Source of the DNA: Flavobacteriales bacterium
Lineage (GTDB): Bacteria > Bacteroidota > Bacteroidia > Flavobacteriales_D > Sanyastnellaceae
Direction: 5' to 3'
NCBI GenBank assembly: GCA_030828175.1
Contig: JAURDB010000002.1
Location: forward strand, 1-49,660
DNA: 49,660 bases
Part shown: positions 478 through 9,382 of the stretch, one piece after another
Position numbering within the stretch: position 1 is the first letter of the stretch
Layout: each line of letters opens with the position of its first letter
Program-made: the position numbers and the translations under genes
The notes under the pieces: model-generated
Seen by the model: the letters and a program-made list of their open reading frames with translations, nothing else
Database searches by the model: none
Told to the model about the DNA's origin: nothing

Positions 478-3400
478 TCAGCGGGACAGGTTGATGTATC
501 CCTTGATTTCCCGCTTTTCATTCGTGGACTCCGAATACAGCACCACGCGATACGCATAGATGCCATCCTCGGCGTAGTACATCTGCGCCGGATCCACGAC
601 CTCATCATCCGCCTGTCCGTACCAGCCCTTGTCAATATCGGTGTTGTGAAAGACCTGATGGCCCCAACGGTTATAAATCCACATCTCGAATCGATCCGGA
701 TCAATGTCTGTACCATAGACGGCCCAGATGTCATTGAACCCATCATTGTTGGGAGTAAAACTGTTGGGGATAAAGACATTGAAGAAGTCGAATATGACGA
801 CTTCACGCGTGACGGCTGATTGACAACCGTTGGTGTCCGTCACCTCCAAGGTCACCGGATAGATCCCCCCATTGCCCAGCGGGAACGTGTAGGTGGGATT
901 CGGCTCTGAACTTACAGCCTCGAGATTTCCAGGAATGAAGTTCCAGCTCCAATCCGTGACGTTGGGAGAAACACTCGAAGCGAAATCAATCCGGCAATCG
1001 GGTGCGGTGGTGGGCTGAGGCCCCGCCTCAAACCCGACACTCGGAGGAGTGAAGACCTGTATGTAGTTGTCTTCAATCAAGGTGTTGACGCATCCCGTAG
1101 TGGTCACCACCGTGACGGAAACGTCATAGACGCCCGGCTCCGTGTAGATGTGCAAGGGCGTCGCTTCCGCGCTGGCTCCTTCGTCACCAAAACTCCAAAC
1201 CTGACTCTGCACGAGTGGTGCCGGCAAATCGTGTCCGAATGTCATCGCCTGGGGAACACAACCCTTGGTGGTATCTGCTGCGAGATGCAAGTCAAACGGC
1301 TGTTCTACCTCGACCTCCATGCACGCCGTCACGGCCGGGGTCGTACAAGCCTCTGAAACCGTCACACAGAACTCCCCGGTCAATGGCGGAACAAACGTGG
1401 ACTGATCATCCGTGCCTGCGGCGAACGTGCTTCCGCCATAAGCGAATTCAAAAGAGTAACCGTCTCCTTGGCCTCCCGTGACATTGATGGCCGACAAAAG
1501 CACCTCATCGCCCAGACAGATCAAGTCGTCTGCATCGATCCCGACCGTGAACGCATCGTAGATGCCCACCTGCACTGAACCCGGCTGGGTCACGCATCCG
1601 GCGGCATCCACGCCTTGCACATCATACACCGTGGTGTACGCGGGACCCACCAGAATGGAAGGTCCCTGCCCCACCAGGTTTCCATCCACCGTCCAGTTGA
1701 AGGTGTAGGGACCGCCGGTAGACGCTGTTGCTGATAAAGTTGTCGCACCGCCAATGCAGATGATCTCGTCGTCACTCAATGAAATGCCCGGCGGCTCAGG
1801 ATCGGCCAAATCGAATTCAATGCTGTAACTGCAACCCAGCTGATCTGACACCTCCAAGGTGTAGGATCCAGCCTCGAGGTTTTCGAAAGCCTGAAGACCA
1901 CCTCCATAAGACAATTGCTCGAGTACGCCTCCCGCATAGCTCAACTGGACATCCCAAGGCCCGTCAGCAGCTGGCTCATCGATGTTCAGCGTGATTTCTC
2001 CATCCGTAATGAGGCAGGTAGGGTCGCTGTAGTCCGTGGTGAATTCAAACCCTGGAACCACCAACACGGTATCCGTGGTGGCACAGTTTTCCAAGCCGAT
2101 GGGCTCTACGAAAGCCACGTATTCCGTGGGTGTACCATCAAACGTATTGACCGTCGGCTGTGCGCTGTTCGGGTTGGTGAGGTTGTCAGCAGGCTCCCAG
2201 CTCCAGATGAAGCCGCAAGCATCGAGACCACATCCCGCACACCAGCTGATTTCCTCGTAAAAAGTGCTCGACTCACAACTCACACTGCCATCCGAAGTGA
2301 GCAACACCGTCAGGCACCCATCGGGGTTGGTCGCCGTCACCGATGTCTCCGGGTAATCTCCGGACAGGTCTACCAACAAGGGAGCAGAGGTGTCGTCTCC
2401 ATCATACACCTGAATGTGGTCGAAGAAGTTCTCGATTTGTCCATCATAAAACAGGATGTTCATCAACGTGCCGTCACCGGGGTTGTCCGGGCAGTAAGTC
2501 CAAGTGGTATTCTCGTTGTTGCCGTAGCATATGGTCGTAGTGCCCTGGTCTCCGCCACAGGGAGAGGGTCCTCCGCCGATGAATGCTCCTTGAAGTTCCA
2601 CAGGGTCCCCACAGAAAACCTGATCCGGCCCGGCGGTTATGCTGTTTTCCGGACCTTCCACCACCTCGATGCTGAGGGTGGTGTCGAAAGTGCAACTGAA
2701 GTTGTTCGTTACCGTGAACACGTAATCGTAAATGCCCGGCTCATCCAAAATGATGTCACAGTAATTCGCATTGAAATCCTGATCGATGATCCCTGGGCCT
2801 GTCCAGTATGAACTGTCCGCATTGAGACCAATGGTCGGGGTAAAAGTGGTCACGCCCGGAATGAGCGCCGGATTGAGGTTCAGGCCCCATTCGAAGATGT
2901 AGCCGTTGTCGATGGCCAGGTTGTCGACCACCGAGAAGGTCCATGTGCCGTTCAAGGGGCATCCCACGAAGTCACAGAGGTCTCCCTCAGCGGTGTACAG
3001 ACCGGGATTGGCCACGTTGTTGTTCTCGGCATTGCCCGCGTTGTCCGTGTAGGCCACCTGCGTCCAATTGGAGTTGTCGTTGATGTTGGTGGCGATGTCA
3101 GGATTGGGAGACCAACCGTAATCATAACCGGTACCGGGAATGTTCGAACCGTCGTCCACTGCCTCACCCAGGAAGCAGCCACCGCCTCCGTTCGGGTAGC
3201 TCATCAGCGGCACCGTGGTTCCATCCGGACAGGTGATCGTCAAATCCAGATCCCCCATGTAACTGTGCTCCATGTTGACGGTCACGGACAACAGATCGTC
3301 ACAATCCTCCAACGTGGCACCGTCCTCGAAAAAGTCAAAGTTCAGCTCACTGCTGTAACTGAAGCCAGCGCCATCCGCGAGGTAGGTCTCCCCTGCCACA

Positions 3401-4296
3401 ACCTGCGGCGGAAGCGCCGTCCATGTAATGCTCTGCACAGGATTGCCATCCACAAATGCCGGACTTCCGGCGCAGACCGGCGTGCTTTGAACACTGTTGA
3501 AAAGTGGAATGGTGCTCACCAAGACTTGCAAGGGCTGCAGGTTGAGGGACACACAACCATTGTTGTCGATTACGGAGAGGTTCACGATGTACTCACCGGG
3601 CTCGTCAAAGGAATGGGTGATGTTCGCTGAAGTCGCAAGGGTATCTACAGACCCATCATCAAAATTCCATACCCACTGGGCCAGATTGAAACCAGGCTCT
3701 GCGGTTGAACCGGCATCTCCAAAGGTGATGGGTTCATTCAAACAAACCCCAATGGACAGAGAGTCGGGATTCGGAAGAGGTGGATCCACAATGCTGCTCG
3801 CCGATATGGGCGTGGCACAGGGTGTTGTGCACGAAATGTTGGCTTCCCAACCCGGTGCTGCGGTGTTTGCAGGACCATTGTCCTGAAAAACGAAAGTCAA
3901 GCATCCCGTTGGATTGTTGACCGTAGCCGTCACCGGCAACCCCTGCAACGCATTGCCCGTGTAGTTTCCCATGGAGGGAGAACCCGCATCAGGTCCATCG
4001 TAGATGAACAGGTAATCACTGTTGTTCGGGTTCGGATTTGTCTCAAGGCCGAAGGCAACAAAACTCACGGAAACCGCATCCCCCGGGTTGTCCGGACATA
4101 GGGTGTAAGTGAAATTGGCGTCTGGGTATGGGTTACCCACTCCACTGTCATCGTTGCCTGCATCAACAAAAATGCCTGTGCAGGTCTCAGCCGTTCCATC
4201 GGACATGATGAAGAACTGCGCTTGGATGACGGATGATAGAGATATCAACGCCACCCCAACCGACAAGCGTCGGAAATTGAATCGATCCTGGGTCAT
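478..4296 (-). CDS. Large secreted multidomain protein: CUB-like, PKD, proprotein-convertase P-like, second CUB-like, further PKD, and a C-terminal gliding-motility-associated (CHU_C) domain; likely T9SS substrate
   Basis: ORF 478..4395. Start chosen at ATG 4296 (MTQDRFNFRRLSVGVALISLSSVIQAQ, signal-peptide-like). C-terminus FIPNSFTPNNDGFNDIWAVYG...FEMWIYNRWGHQVFHNTD...GIYAYRVVLYS matches CHU_C. Contains PKD cores (WSFGDEG...TPLHIYTEPGVYDVSVTV) and duplicated CPDNPGD CUB-like segments. Confidence 0.88.
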   Translation of the reverse strand: MTQDRFNFRRLSVGVALISLSSVIQAQFFIMSDGTAETCTGIFVDAGNDDSGVGNPYPDANFTYTLCPDNPGDAVSVSFVAFGLETNPNPNNSDYLFIYDGPDAGSPSMGNYTGNALQGLPVTATVNNPTGCLTFVFQDNGPANTAAPGWEANISCTTPCATPISASSIVDPPLPNPDSLSIGVCLNEPITFGDAGSTAEPGFNLAQWVWNFDDGSVDTLATSANITHSFDEPGEYIVNLSVIDNNGCVSLNLQPLQVLVSTIPLFNSVQSTPVCAGSPAFVDGNPVQSITWTALPPQVVAGETYLADGAGFSYSSELNFDFFEDGATLEDCDDLLSVTVNMEHSYMGDLDLTITCPDGTTVPLMSYPNGGGGCFLGEAVDDGSNIPGTGYDYGWSPNPDIATNINDNSNWTQVAYTDNAGNAENNNVANPGLYTAEGDLCDFVGCPLNGTWTFSVVDNLAIDNGYIFEWGLNLNPALIPGVTTFTPTIGLNADSSYWTGPGIIDQDFNANYCDIILDEPGIYDYVFTVTNNFSCTFDTTLSIEVVEGPENSITAGPDQVFCGDPVELQGAFIGGGPSPCGGDQGTTTICYGNNENTTWTYCPDNPGDGTLMNILFYDGQIENFFDHIQVYDGDDTSAPLLVDLSGDYPETSVTATNPDGCLTVLLTSDGSVSCESSTFYEEISWCAGCGLDACGFIWSWEPADNLTNPNSAQPTVNTFDGTPTEYVAFVEPIGLENCATTDTVLVVPGFEFTTDYSDPTCLITDGEITLNIDEPAADGPWDVQLSYAGGVLEQLSYGGGLQAFENLEAGSYTLEVSDQLGCSYSIEFDLADPEPPGISLSDDEIICIGGATTLSATASTGGPYTFNWTVDGNLVGQGPSILVGPAYTTVYDVQGVDAAGCVTQPGSVQVGIYDAFTVGIDADDLICLGDEVLLSAINVTGGQGDGYSFEFAYGGSTFAAGTDDQSTFVPPLTGEFCVTVSEACTTPAVTACMEVEVEQPFDLHLAADTTKGCVPQAMTFGHDLPAPLVQSQVWSFGDEGASAEATPLHIYTEPGVYDVSVTVVTTTGCVNTLIEDNYIQVFTPPSVGFEAGPQPTTAPDCRIDFASSVSPNVTDWSWNFIPGNLEAVSSEPNPTYTFPLGNGGIYPVTLEVTDTNGCQSAVTREVVIFDFFNVFIPNSFTPNNDGFNDIWAVYGTDIDPDRFEMWIYNRWGHQVFHNTDIDKGWYGQADDEVVDPAQMYYAEDGIYAYRVVLYSESTNEKREIKGYINLSR

Positions 4297-4405
4297 GGTT
4301 GTAGGTCCAAAGGTGGAACCGAACAACGAAAGGAAGCGTTGCATGAACCGCAAATGTTCCACGGTGGGTTGTGTCCAAATCCAAGACACCCGCATGGGAC
4401 TGCCT

Positions 4406-5725
4406 TCATTCTACCAAGAGTTCATCGGCATAGTAAGCGGGTCCTGCCTTACCCTGAACCACAATGGACCAAGAGAAACCAGATCCCGGCAGCGCCCGCC
4501 CCCCTGTGGGAAGGCTGCCGTCCCATGCCTTTGGCTCGGTGGTCTCAAAGACGATGTGCCCCTGCTTGTCCTGGATTCGAAAGACAAAAGGCCACTCCAA
4601 TTGCAGCAATCCCCTCGGAAGAAAACGGTCATAACTGCCGTCTCCATCGGGACTGAACCTTCCGGCCCCTCCTATTCCAAATCGGCTACCCACTTCAATG
4701 TTGTGGCGCGCAACCGATTGACATCCATAGGGAGAACTCGCCACCAACTGAACCACGTGTTCACCTGTGCGGCCCAACTCGAAGTCCGCAGATTCGCCAG
4801 CCTTGGCGGTTTCCCCGTCTACAATCCATGTGGCATTGCTCGCATCTCGGCTTCGGTTCCGCATGCGAATGACCGGGTTCCGTTCGGACATGGCCGGGAC
4901 CTCCCACGTAAAGTCTGCCCGTGGTATCGGATGGATGGTCACCAGATTTTCAATGGTCCGCGTGCGAATCAATCCATCGCTGATCCGCGTCACACTCAAG
5001 GTAATGTCGTAGGTACCCGGTGCATCAAAAACGTGCTGTGGAGAGGCCTCGTTGCTGAATTGACCATCACCGAAGTTCCAAAGCACCCGCACGTCATTCA
5101 TGGGTTTGGCCATTCTGAAACCGATTTCGGTTCCCACGCAGGCGGCATCGATGTCGGCTGCAAAGGCGGCTGCCACCGCAGCAGGCAACTCAGCCCAATC
5201 CGCAGGGACGTCCACGGGAGATACATCCCCGCGGACCGAAGACGGCTTTGAAGCGGGTATGGAAGCCGTCTCAGTTGCAGCGCCCGATACATCGGCCCCA
5301 GCCAATTCTGCTCTGCCCTGCTCGGCGGTGCCGCCCCCCATATTCTCATCCACTTCTCCCCGCTTGGCTCCCCCAACTTCCTGACTTTCGGCAAATCCAG
5401 GATCTTCTGAAGGGCCTTCGTCCAACGCACCGCTGACCCATCCTGAATTTTCACCCTCGGAAGCTGCTTCCGGAATGTCGGAATCCACCGGGTCGGTGAA
5501 CCAGAGGGCGCCTCCAATCAACGCCGCTCCAGCGGCAGGACCCAAAATCCAGCGCCACGAAGCAGCAGCGGCACCACCTGCCGCACCACCCGCCATGGCT
5601 GACTGCATGGTCAACCAACTTGGGGCAGCCAGACCCGGCGCTTTTTCCAACGCCGAGCGCATGCCCTGTTCAAAGCTGCCACCGGCAGCTCCCCGCTTCT
5701 TTTCTTCTTCTCGCTCTTCGCTCAC
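4406..5725 (-). CDS. Single-TM PKD-domain protein with degenerate CHU_C-like C-terminus; candidate anti-sigma/sensor
   Basis: Short charged N-terminus, then TM WILGPAAGAALIGGALWF, then PKD (VLWNFGDGQFSNEASPQHVFDAPGTYDITLSV) and C-terminal FSPDGDGSYDRF...FRIQDKQGHIVFETTEPKAWDGSLP. ATG overlaps the stop of the upstream sigma-factor gene. Confidence 0.75.
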   Translation of the reverse strand: MSEEREEEKKRGAAGGSFEQGMRSALEKAPGLAAPSWLTMQSAMAGGAAGGAAAASWRWILGPAAGAALIGGALWFTDPVDSDIPEAASEGENSGWVSGALDEGPSEDPGFAESQEVGGAKRGEVDENMGGGTAEQGRAELAGADVSGAATETASIPASKPSSVRGDVSPVDVPADWAELPAAVAAAFAADIDAACVGTEIGFRMAKPMNDVRVLWNFGDGQFSNEASPQHVFDAPGTYDITLSVTRISDGLIRTRTIENLVTIHPIPRADFTWEVPAMSERNPVIRMRNRSRDASNATWIVDGETAKAGESADFELGRTGEHVVQLVASSPYGCQSVARHNIEVGSRFGIGGAGRFSPDGDGSYDRFLPRGLLQLEWPFVFRIQDKQGHIVFETTEPKAWDGSLPTGGRALPGSGFSWSIVVQGKAGPAYYADELLVE

Positions 5726-6342
5726 TTTTCCCTCAATTTCTTCCGCAACAATTCGCGCAAGTTCCTGCGCGCCTTGGCATAATTCGATTTAGAAGTCCCC
5801 TCCGATATCCCCAACTCAATGGCGATGTCCCGGTGACCATACCCCTCAATCGCATATAGGTTGAAGACCGCACGGTACACGGGCGTCAACTGCTCCATCG
5901 CCTCCAAGATGTCATTCTGCCCCAGACCTGCCCATTCCGGCTCGTTCTCCTCCTGCACGCGTTCGGACAACACATCCAACATCTCCTCAGACTCCCCCAC
6001 GAACTGCAGTTGGCGCGAGGCGCGCAATGCGTCGATGGCCATGTTCACCATGATCCGGCGAACCCACCCCTCGAACGACCCCTTGAAGGTGTAACCGCCA
6101 ATGTTGCGGAAAACCTTGATGAACCCATCCTGCAGCACATCCAACGCCTCCTGTTCTCCGGGAATGTATCGGCGAATCGCCAACAACATCTTCCCCGCAT
6201 AGAACTCGTAGATCTGTCTTTGCCCTTCGGTTTCTTCCGCCTGGGCAGATTTTACCCAAGACCGAATCACTTCGGGGTCCGGAGGAGCGGACGGAGAGAT
6301 GACGAATCGTTCCACGATTGGTTGCCCGAAAGAAACCGACAT
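5722..6342 (-). CDS. ECF-type RNA polymerase sigma factor
   Basis: Region 2 (EALDVLQDGFIKVFRNIGGYTFKGSFEGWVRRIMVNMAIDALR) and region 4 (LTPVYRAVFNLYAIEGYGHRDIAIELGISEGTSKSNYAKARRNLRELL). ATG at 6342; the track extends to a TTG at 6348. Confidence 0.9.
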   Translation of the reverse strand: MSVSFGQPIVERFVISPSAPPDPEVIRSWVKSAQAEETEGQRQIYEFYAGKMLLAIRRYIPGEQEALDVLQDGFIKVFRNIGGYTFKGSFEGWVRRIMVNMAIDALRASRQLQFVGESEEMLDVLSERVQEENEPEWAGLGQNDILEAMEQLTPVYRAVFNLYAIEGYGHRDIAIELGISEGTSKSNYAKARRNLRELLRKKLREK

Positions 6343-9254: not shown

Positions 9255-9260
9255 TCCACG

Positions 9261-9360
9261 GAGGGCAAGTCTCCCACGACCAGCTCCCACTGAATCCCCC
9301 AGGGCCGGAAGGCAGCAAGGGTAAGTGGTCGTAGCGGTGCGATGGGAATCGCTTGCCCTC
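9261..9360 (+). ncRNA. ffs: Small bacterial signal recognition particle RNA (4.5S-like)
   Basis: Domain IV apical sequence CCCCCAGGGCCGGAAGGCAGCAAGGGTA (9296-9323). Inner helix CCACT (9287-9291)/AGTGG (9324-9328). Perfect closing helix GAGGGCAAG (9261-9269)/CTTGCCCTC (9352-9360), followed by TCTTTTT. Confidence 0.92.
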
Positions 9361-9382
9361 TCTTTTTGCCCATATTTCGGCC

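Follow-up and report, generated by a model that had tools for sequence, protein, structure and literature searches.

A conserved ECF sigma factor and membrane protein pair in Flavobacteriales with a cargo-signal-like periplasmic domain: a candidate regulator of type IX secretion

The type IX secretion system (T9SS) exports adhesins and gliding proteins, and how Bacteroidota sense and adjust it is largely unknown outside Porphyromonas gingivalis. The locus described here raises the question of whether a cell might read the state of T9SS through a membrane-bound look-alike of its cargo. The locus lies in a window of 49,660 nucleotides (the whole stretch of DNA that we analysed; contig JAURDB010000002.1 of GenBank assembly GCA_030828175.1), which originates from a 2.3-Mb draft genome of a Flavobacteriales bacterium in 252 contigs that is 84% complete. 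The cassette that it contains offers a candidate anti-sigma module of two helices, a sharply defined promoter motif, a compact predicted regulon and a candidate family of sRNAs, with which the question becomes directly testable; if the proposal developed below is true, it would describe a cargo-mimic sensor for T9SS.

Three open reading frames (ORFs) on the minus strand of the window make up the cassette. The first encodes a sigma factor (5722..6270, minus strand) with matches to Sigma70_r2 (4e-11) and Sigma70_r4_2 (1e-15) in Pfam and to TIGR02937 (1.3e-26), and it belongs to the ECF type, with regions 2 and 4 but not region 3, and a length of 182-208 aa depending on the start. It shares 4 nt (GTGA) with the gene of a 439-aa protein (4406..5725, minus strand), a putative membrane anti-sigma factor given its conserved position, one transmembrane (TM) helix and CHU_C-like end. 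The third gene, present in most loci, encodes a giant CUB/PKD/P-domain protein (478..4296, minus strand; ORF 478-4395), which probably starts at ATG 4296 (MTQDRF..., a signal peptide). Pfam detects three PKD domains, CUB, P_proprotein and CHU_C (2.2e-16) in this giant, and its TIGR04131 score of 39.9 bits, against a cut-off of 35, identifies it as type-B T9SS cargo, with an intact type-B CTD (487..774, minus strand) that carries NRWG and WYG and ends in GYINLSR. The ORFs and Pfam matches thus agree with the first-pass annotation in the 4-nt overlap, the one-TM middle protein and the domains of the giant. Elsewhere in the window, a Bacteroidales small SRP RNA is found at 9256-9362 on the plus strand (Rfam RF04183, E 4.5e-22).

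Searches of relatives with the 439-aa protein returned members of similar length in the genus, the family and the order, and every retrieved locus whose contig extends far enough has an ECF gene immediately upstream (locus L018 is ended by the contig end before the upstream gene). A search of GTDB genomes by the sigma factor alone gave 80 Flavobacteriales/Bacteroidota loci, in nearly all of which the gene after sigma encodes a protein of about 400-450 aa with one TM helix near residue 50 and a C-terminal CHU_C domain, the most frequent spacing between the two genes being a 4-nt overlap (35 cases). The cassette is real and conserved, and the pair recurs across Flavobacteriales families, a named cultured strain, Cryomorpha ignava (locus L058), being among those that have it, so that the co-occurrence expected by the first-pass annotation is borne out by this neighbourhood survey of loci picked by sigma. 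Behind the pair, an ORF of at least 600 aa follows on the same strand within 700 nt in 41 of the 57 distinct loci with enough sequence; these ORFs are often recognisable CHU_C/PKD adhesins (23 by simple motifs, many others being cut by the locus end). A phylum-wide profile search, in which four candidates per genome were scored, returned mostly PKD/CHU_C adhesins and sets no bounds to the distribution of the pair. In nine inspected loci there is no adhesin behind the pair and unrelated genes stand there instead, and consequently we regard the sigma/TM pair as the core and the adhesin as an optional third gene. The earlier suggestion that the TM protein senses a cognate adhesin is weakened by these loci, at least nine among those inspected; given this loose linkage, we argue that the sensor would read how the secretion route is faring overall and not a single adhesin. 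Where the adhesin is missing, a role in T9SS is also not evident from the locus itself.

The cytoplasmic part of the TM protein comprises about 57 residues, in which AlphaFold2 predicts two core helices (16-28 and 37-45) with moderate confidence (pLDDT about 60-73). This two-helix module (residues 16-45; 5591..5680), a candidate anti-sigma domain on the basis of AlphaFold2 and profile matches, is followed by a single TM helix (residues 58-75; 5501..5554), found by hydropathy and as an AlphaFold2 helix over the same residues, and by a disordered periplasmic linker (residues 76-165; 5231..5500; pLDDT <50 over residues 76-151). The three periplasmic beta domains beyond it are well predicted, with pLDDT mostly >90: a PKD domain (residues 188-265; 4931..5164; PKD_4 5.7e-12) with invariant C196 and G237, a second Ig-like domain (residues 272-346; 4688..4912) with invariant C335, and a CHU_C-like domain (residues 347-438; 4412..4687) that has neither the R-x-W-G motif nor the final basic residue (all on the minus strand). 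Foldseek comparison of the model with the PDB returned generic Ig-array matches (e.g. GhpA of Aureispira) and no functional lead.

Several observations bear on whether the N-terminus binds the sigma factor. No curated anti-sigma family was matched by the 439-aa protein in a Pfam and curated-family profile search, and it does not have a class I anti-sigma domain of the RseA/ChrR/RsiW type, which has four helices and often the zinc motif HxxxCxxC. A class I anti-sigma factor is found near only 6% of Bacteroidetes ECFs (PMC7406223), so an unrecognised type of anti-sigma factor is to be expected here. Cell-surface signalling of the FecI/FecR kind was ruled out, as the TM protein has no FecR domain and the third gene, which would have to supply the transducer, encodes a PKD/CHU_C protein and not a TonB receptor. 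The peptide FEQGMRSALEKAPGLAAPSWLTMQSAM, on the other hand, fits a family-wide motif directly before the TM helix (roughly FE..[IL]K.sLe..EvPYn..dW..le..L); the description of the N-terminus as "not a recognisable canonical anti-sigma" therefore holds for curated families but misses a motif of its own family. Moreover, a profile of the N-terminus built from CHU_C-type family members matches ECF-adjacent proteins with unrelated periplasmic parts (L102, 1.1e-9; L117, 7.8e-5; L104, 1.1e-4; L114, 4.3e-4) and, marginally, L062 and L065, while among other ORFs it found two weak matches only (0.036 and 0.4). Since the same module is carried by unrelated proteins beside ECF genes, the two-helix N-terminus is probably an anti-sigma domain. 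It may be a minimal one, working by analogy like the two-helix domain of CnrY, which wraps sigma2 and sigma4 (PMC7406223). At a further locus (L216, G030:C27), an ECF promoter stands before the gene of a 278-aa protein with an N-terminus similar to this anti-sigma-like motif.

At the other end of the protein, the CHU_C-like domain is related to, and distinct from, the signal of secreted cargo. In the 439-aa protein it stays below threshold both for CHU_C (13.4 bits against a cut-off of 27, E 0.087) and for TIGR04131 (13.8 against 35 bits), and by these measures the protein is not type-B cargo. Across the family, 29 of 51 TM proteins match TIGR04131 at E <0.01, which makes homology to the cargo signal clear. 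We aligned 84 distinct TM-protein domains with 36 CHU_C domains of large ORFs from the same loci and genomes (an adhesin set seeded from this locus). R-x-W-G is found in none of the 84 TM-protein domains versus 35 of 36 adhesins, the Asn of the DGxND loop in 17/84 versus 36/36, and a final K/R in 31/84 versus 34/36, whereas W-x-G is kept in all 84 and the TM-protein domains possess a signature of their own (P34 in 79/84, W98 in 82/84). In a tree whose few columns and long branches limit finer inference, 81 of the 84 are set apart from the adhesin domains with a branch support of 98/99. A further set of eight type-B proteins with predicted ECF promoters, identified later, serves as a partial check: RWG is present in six, the others having GWG (L383) and RRG (L384). 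Judged by alignment and tree, the domain is an old separate branch and a conserved subfamily of its own; the first-pass description of a "degenerate CHU_C-like end" is right about the sub-threshold match, but this is not a decayed end. In Flavobacterium johnsoniae each of five conserved type-B CTD motifs is needed for secretion (PMC12618676). Taking that result together with the alignment, we infer that most of the TM-protein domains are not exportable cargo, and the match of their changes to motifs A-E is likewise our reading.

Upstream of sigma, GGGCAACC...CGTC is kept across species and conserved in 11 relatives of the genus. In the window it forms a predicted ECF-type promoter (6301..6327, minus strand), GGGCAACC-AATCGTGGAACGATT-CGTC, with GGCAACC as -35, a 15-nt spacer and CGTC as -10. 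Upstream of sigma, 78 of 99 loci contain the pattern G[GC]AAC[CT]-N14-18-CGT, whereas mononucleotide shuffling yields 1.0 on average and 4 at most (the 99 include related loci and hence are not independent); the consensus is GGCAACC-N15-CGTC[TA], sometimes with N14. The sigma ORF is open to 6348, and the promoter (6327-6301) separates an ATG at 6342 from the remaining coding sequence, but an in-frame stop in the related species L009, just before the conserved GQPIV stretch, argues that coding constraint does not explain the motif. For the same reason, and because the promoter follows it closely and covers part of the other shared start codon (GTG, 6315-6309 region), ATG 6342 is unlikely to be the start of sigma; GTG 6270, giving 182 aa, is likelier, and candidate GTG/TTG start codons downstream of the promoter differ among species of the genus. 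The position of the motif points to autoregulation of the sigma operon from an ECF-type promoter, and the promoter could also be used by further ECF factors of these genomes. Between mnmA and sigma, L009-L017 and L035 share another conserved block, CGATATTG ... TTTTGTGAATG (GATATTG...TTTTGTG); its spacing is too variable for a sigmaA promoter.

The same promoter defines a small predicted regulon. GGCAACC-N15-CGTC precedes the sigma operon in 29 of 33 genomes and a DUF5684 four-TM protein in 26 of 33; nearly all of these sites are +1 to +68 nt away from their gene (one candidate start is at -12). Overall counts of the strict pattern are not above control (31 versus 32), and the argument consequently rests on conservation and not on raw number. 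With a looser pattern, the 11 genus genomes contain 57 sites, where the reversed pattern gives 27; of the 57, 29 belong to the sigma operon, DUF5684 and an sRNA described below, which accounts for the excess over control; in this genus the looser pattern gives no T9SS excess beyond the operon's own adhesin. All three core targets are present in the genome of the window, where the small DUF5684 protein with the same ECF promoter before it was located by promoter search at G000:C55:8140-8167 (minus strand, locus L148). Orthologous exported FG-GAP-like proteins stand behind an ECF promoter in two genomes (L158 in G005, L204 in G016), and are possibly a further member of the regulon in the genus.

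Evidence for a link to secretion comes from 12 more distant genomes, in which 44 promoter sites were found versus 16 in the control. Besides core targets (sigma operons 7, DUF5684 4, sRNA 4), these sites precede eight type-B CTD proteins, of which six exceed the TIGR04131 cut-off and two do not, as well as four proteins with a type-A CTD and two of the PorP/SprF family, of which one exceeds the curated cut-off. The apparent enrichment of T9SS genes is judged from how rare such genes are and not from a measured p-value. The genome of the window is itself T9SS-bearing, with SprA (SprA_N 1e-155) and eight PorP/SprF genes, none of which lies beside the window cassette. The earlier proposal of a secretion-linked regulon is supported by this promoter, shared by the operon and, in other families, by type-A/B CTD proteins and PorP/SprF shuttles. 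The co-occurrence and the anti-sigma-like module at the N-terminus also support that reading, which had missed the promoter, the DUF5684 target and the sRNA. In the open-access literature we found no description of a CTD-bearing anti-sigma factor, nor of DUF5684.

The third core target is an RNA of about 85-95 nt, built from a hairpin, a single-stranded core that is conserved (TTGGTTTCAA...TTGCAGGTT) and a terminator, which in several genomes adjoins the gene of an OmpR-type response regulator. RNAalifold gives 16 pairs, 10 with compensatory changes, and an Rfam search of the sRNA loci and the window found no family for it. A covariance model, built without the promoter, recovers the sRNA in the genome of the window (G000:C191:1407-1491, plus strand, locus L255, E 3e-7) and, this one included, in 19 genomes outside the training set once weak and tRNA-like matches are discarded; those rejected are L265 and L270, tRNA-like stretches without the promoter, and L268 and L269 were also left out of the count. 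All sRNAs found by the model have the promoter upstream, as GGCAACC or, in the genus, GGCAACG, with one G057 copy retaining only CAACC...CGT; G037 and G057 contain two or three copies. The members are L154, L161, L187, L188, L196-L198, L205, L217, L220, L221, L224, L233, L237 and L243-L264. The first of the tandem promoter-like sites near the sRNA was left uncounted, as it falls within the coding sequence of the response regulator (RQP...SVRG), where it may reflect coding constraint. An exact 12-mer complementary to the sRNA core was searched for, and since little was found beyond the sRNA itself we claim no target. Structure and conservation suggest a candidate family of structured sRNAs that is apparently undescribed.

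Taken together, these observations favour an ECF sigma factor under its own control, paired with an anti-sigma factor in the membrane, which would serve T9SS in a manner resembling the logic of the sigmaE envelope response, a reading to which we assign a probability of roughly 0.6. Under this proposal, the two cytoplasmic helices of the TM protein would hold the sigma factor, and the cargo-like domain, being non-exportable, would remain in the periplasm as a decoy or receptor, where its binding partner (cargo, shuttle or translocon) would report how well T9SS handles its cargo. A change at this domain would lead to release of sigma, by proteolysis or a conformational route; the freed sigma would then increase transcription of adhesin, shuttle and membrane-protein genes, and the sRNA of the regulon would adjust other mRNAs. 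The more specific idea, that the look-alike of the T9SS cargo signal is the sensing half of the anti-sigma factor, competing in the periplasm with real cargo or bound as cargo is, and reporting secretion load to a regulon with a new sRNA family, we hold tentatively, at somewhat short of even odds.

The strongest competitor is an ordinary ECF/anti-sigma pair for general envelope stress, whose PKD and CHU_C domains would form a stable Ig-like spacer sensing a cue other than T9SS (surface contact, peptidoglycan or a ligand), T9SS genes being targets as a large envelope load. Such a response would fit the inspected loci, at least nine, in which the pair lacks an adhesin, the occurrence of the N-terminal module on very different periplasmic parts in some ECF-adjacent proteins, and an sRNA arm with a small membrane protein. 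The competitor accommodates less easily that a domain resembling the cargo signal has stayed at the very C-terminal end, with a conserved signature of its own, through long divergence, or that T9SS cargo and shuttles recur among the non-core targets of several families, and we consider it unlikely, if a serious contender. A different possibility is that the TM protein is itself a T9SS substrate, whose CTD is engaged by the translocon so that pulling or export takes the anti-sigma factor from the membrane, comparable to export of FlgM by the flagellar type III system. The family members that match TIGR04131 on their own (29/51) invite this idea, and the long linker, modelled as disordered, could span the periplasm; but R-x-W-G is absent from all 84 domains and a terminal basic residue present in only 31, F. 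johnsoniae secretion needs all five type-B motifs (PMC12618676), and no PorP/SprF gene adjoins the window cassette, all of which makes this improbable. That the TM protein is no anti-sigma factor, and instead a surface or periplasmic protein merely in sigma's operon, agrees with the missing curated family match but hardly with a short N-terminal module conserved among otherwise unrelated proteins in the same ECF-adjacent position, or with the common start/stop codon overlap of the pair, and we give it very little credence.

The preferred reading, a sigma factor and anti-sigma factor that would serve T9SS, can be compared with several known systems. Sigma E and RseA of E. coli combine a membrane anti-sigma factor, an autoregulated operon, sigmaE-dependent sRNAs and outer-membrane traffic as a theme, and RseA is a class I anti-sigma factor cut by DegS. 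The predicted system would share the membrane anti-sigma factor, the autoregulated operon, an sRNA in the regulon and the theme of outer-membrane traffic, but on the periplasmic side it looks like secreted cargo, and a class I domain was not found in it. CnrH/CnrY senses metal through CnrX, and its sensing part is entirely different from that found here. The likeness to CnrY, a class II anti-sigma factor of Cupriavidus metallidurans, concerns the very short two-helix cytoplasmic part on a membrane protein (PMC7406223), which here is a prediction of moderate confidence. Type-B CTD cargo such as SprB (CHU_C, TIGR04131; PMC12618676, PMC9143113) is homologous to the C-terminal domain of the TM protein, whereas the latter has no R-x-W-G, mostly no final basic residue, a membrane anchor and a branch of its own. 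The SM6 promoters of Flavobacterium psychrophilum are also of ECF type with a CGT -10 box, and drive the T9SS genes GldN and PorU, the ECF/anti-sigma pair THC0290_1774/1773 and the putative sRNA Rfp11; the available part of that source (PMC9723704) gives no account of the domains of that anti-sigma factor and lists T9SS machinery and not CHU_C adhesins and DUF5684, and the likeness is one of description only. Finally, in PorXY-SigP/PorA of Porphyromonas gingivalis T9SS genes are also under the control of an ECF sigma factor, upstream of which a protein with a CTD acts, but there the response regulator PorX activates SigP, and PorA is a secreted surface protein confined to Porphyromonas (PMC7712824), whereas in the system proposed here the membrane protein in the anti-sigma position itself carries the CTD-like domain and the predicted targets are cargo, shuttles, DUF5684 and an sRNA.
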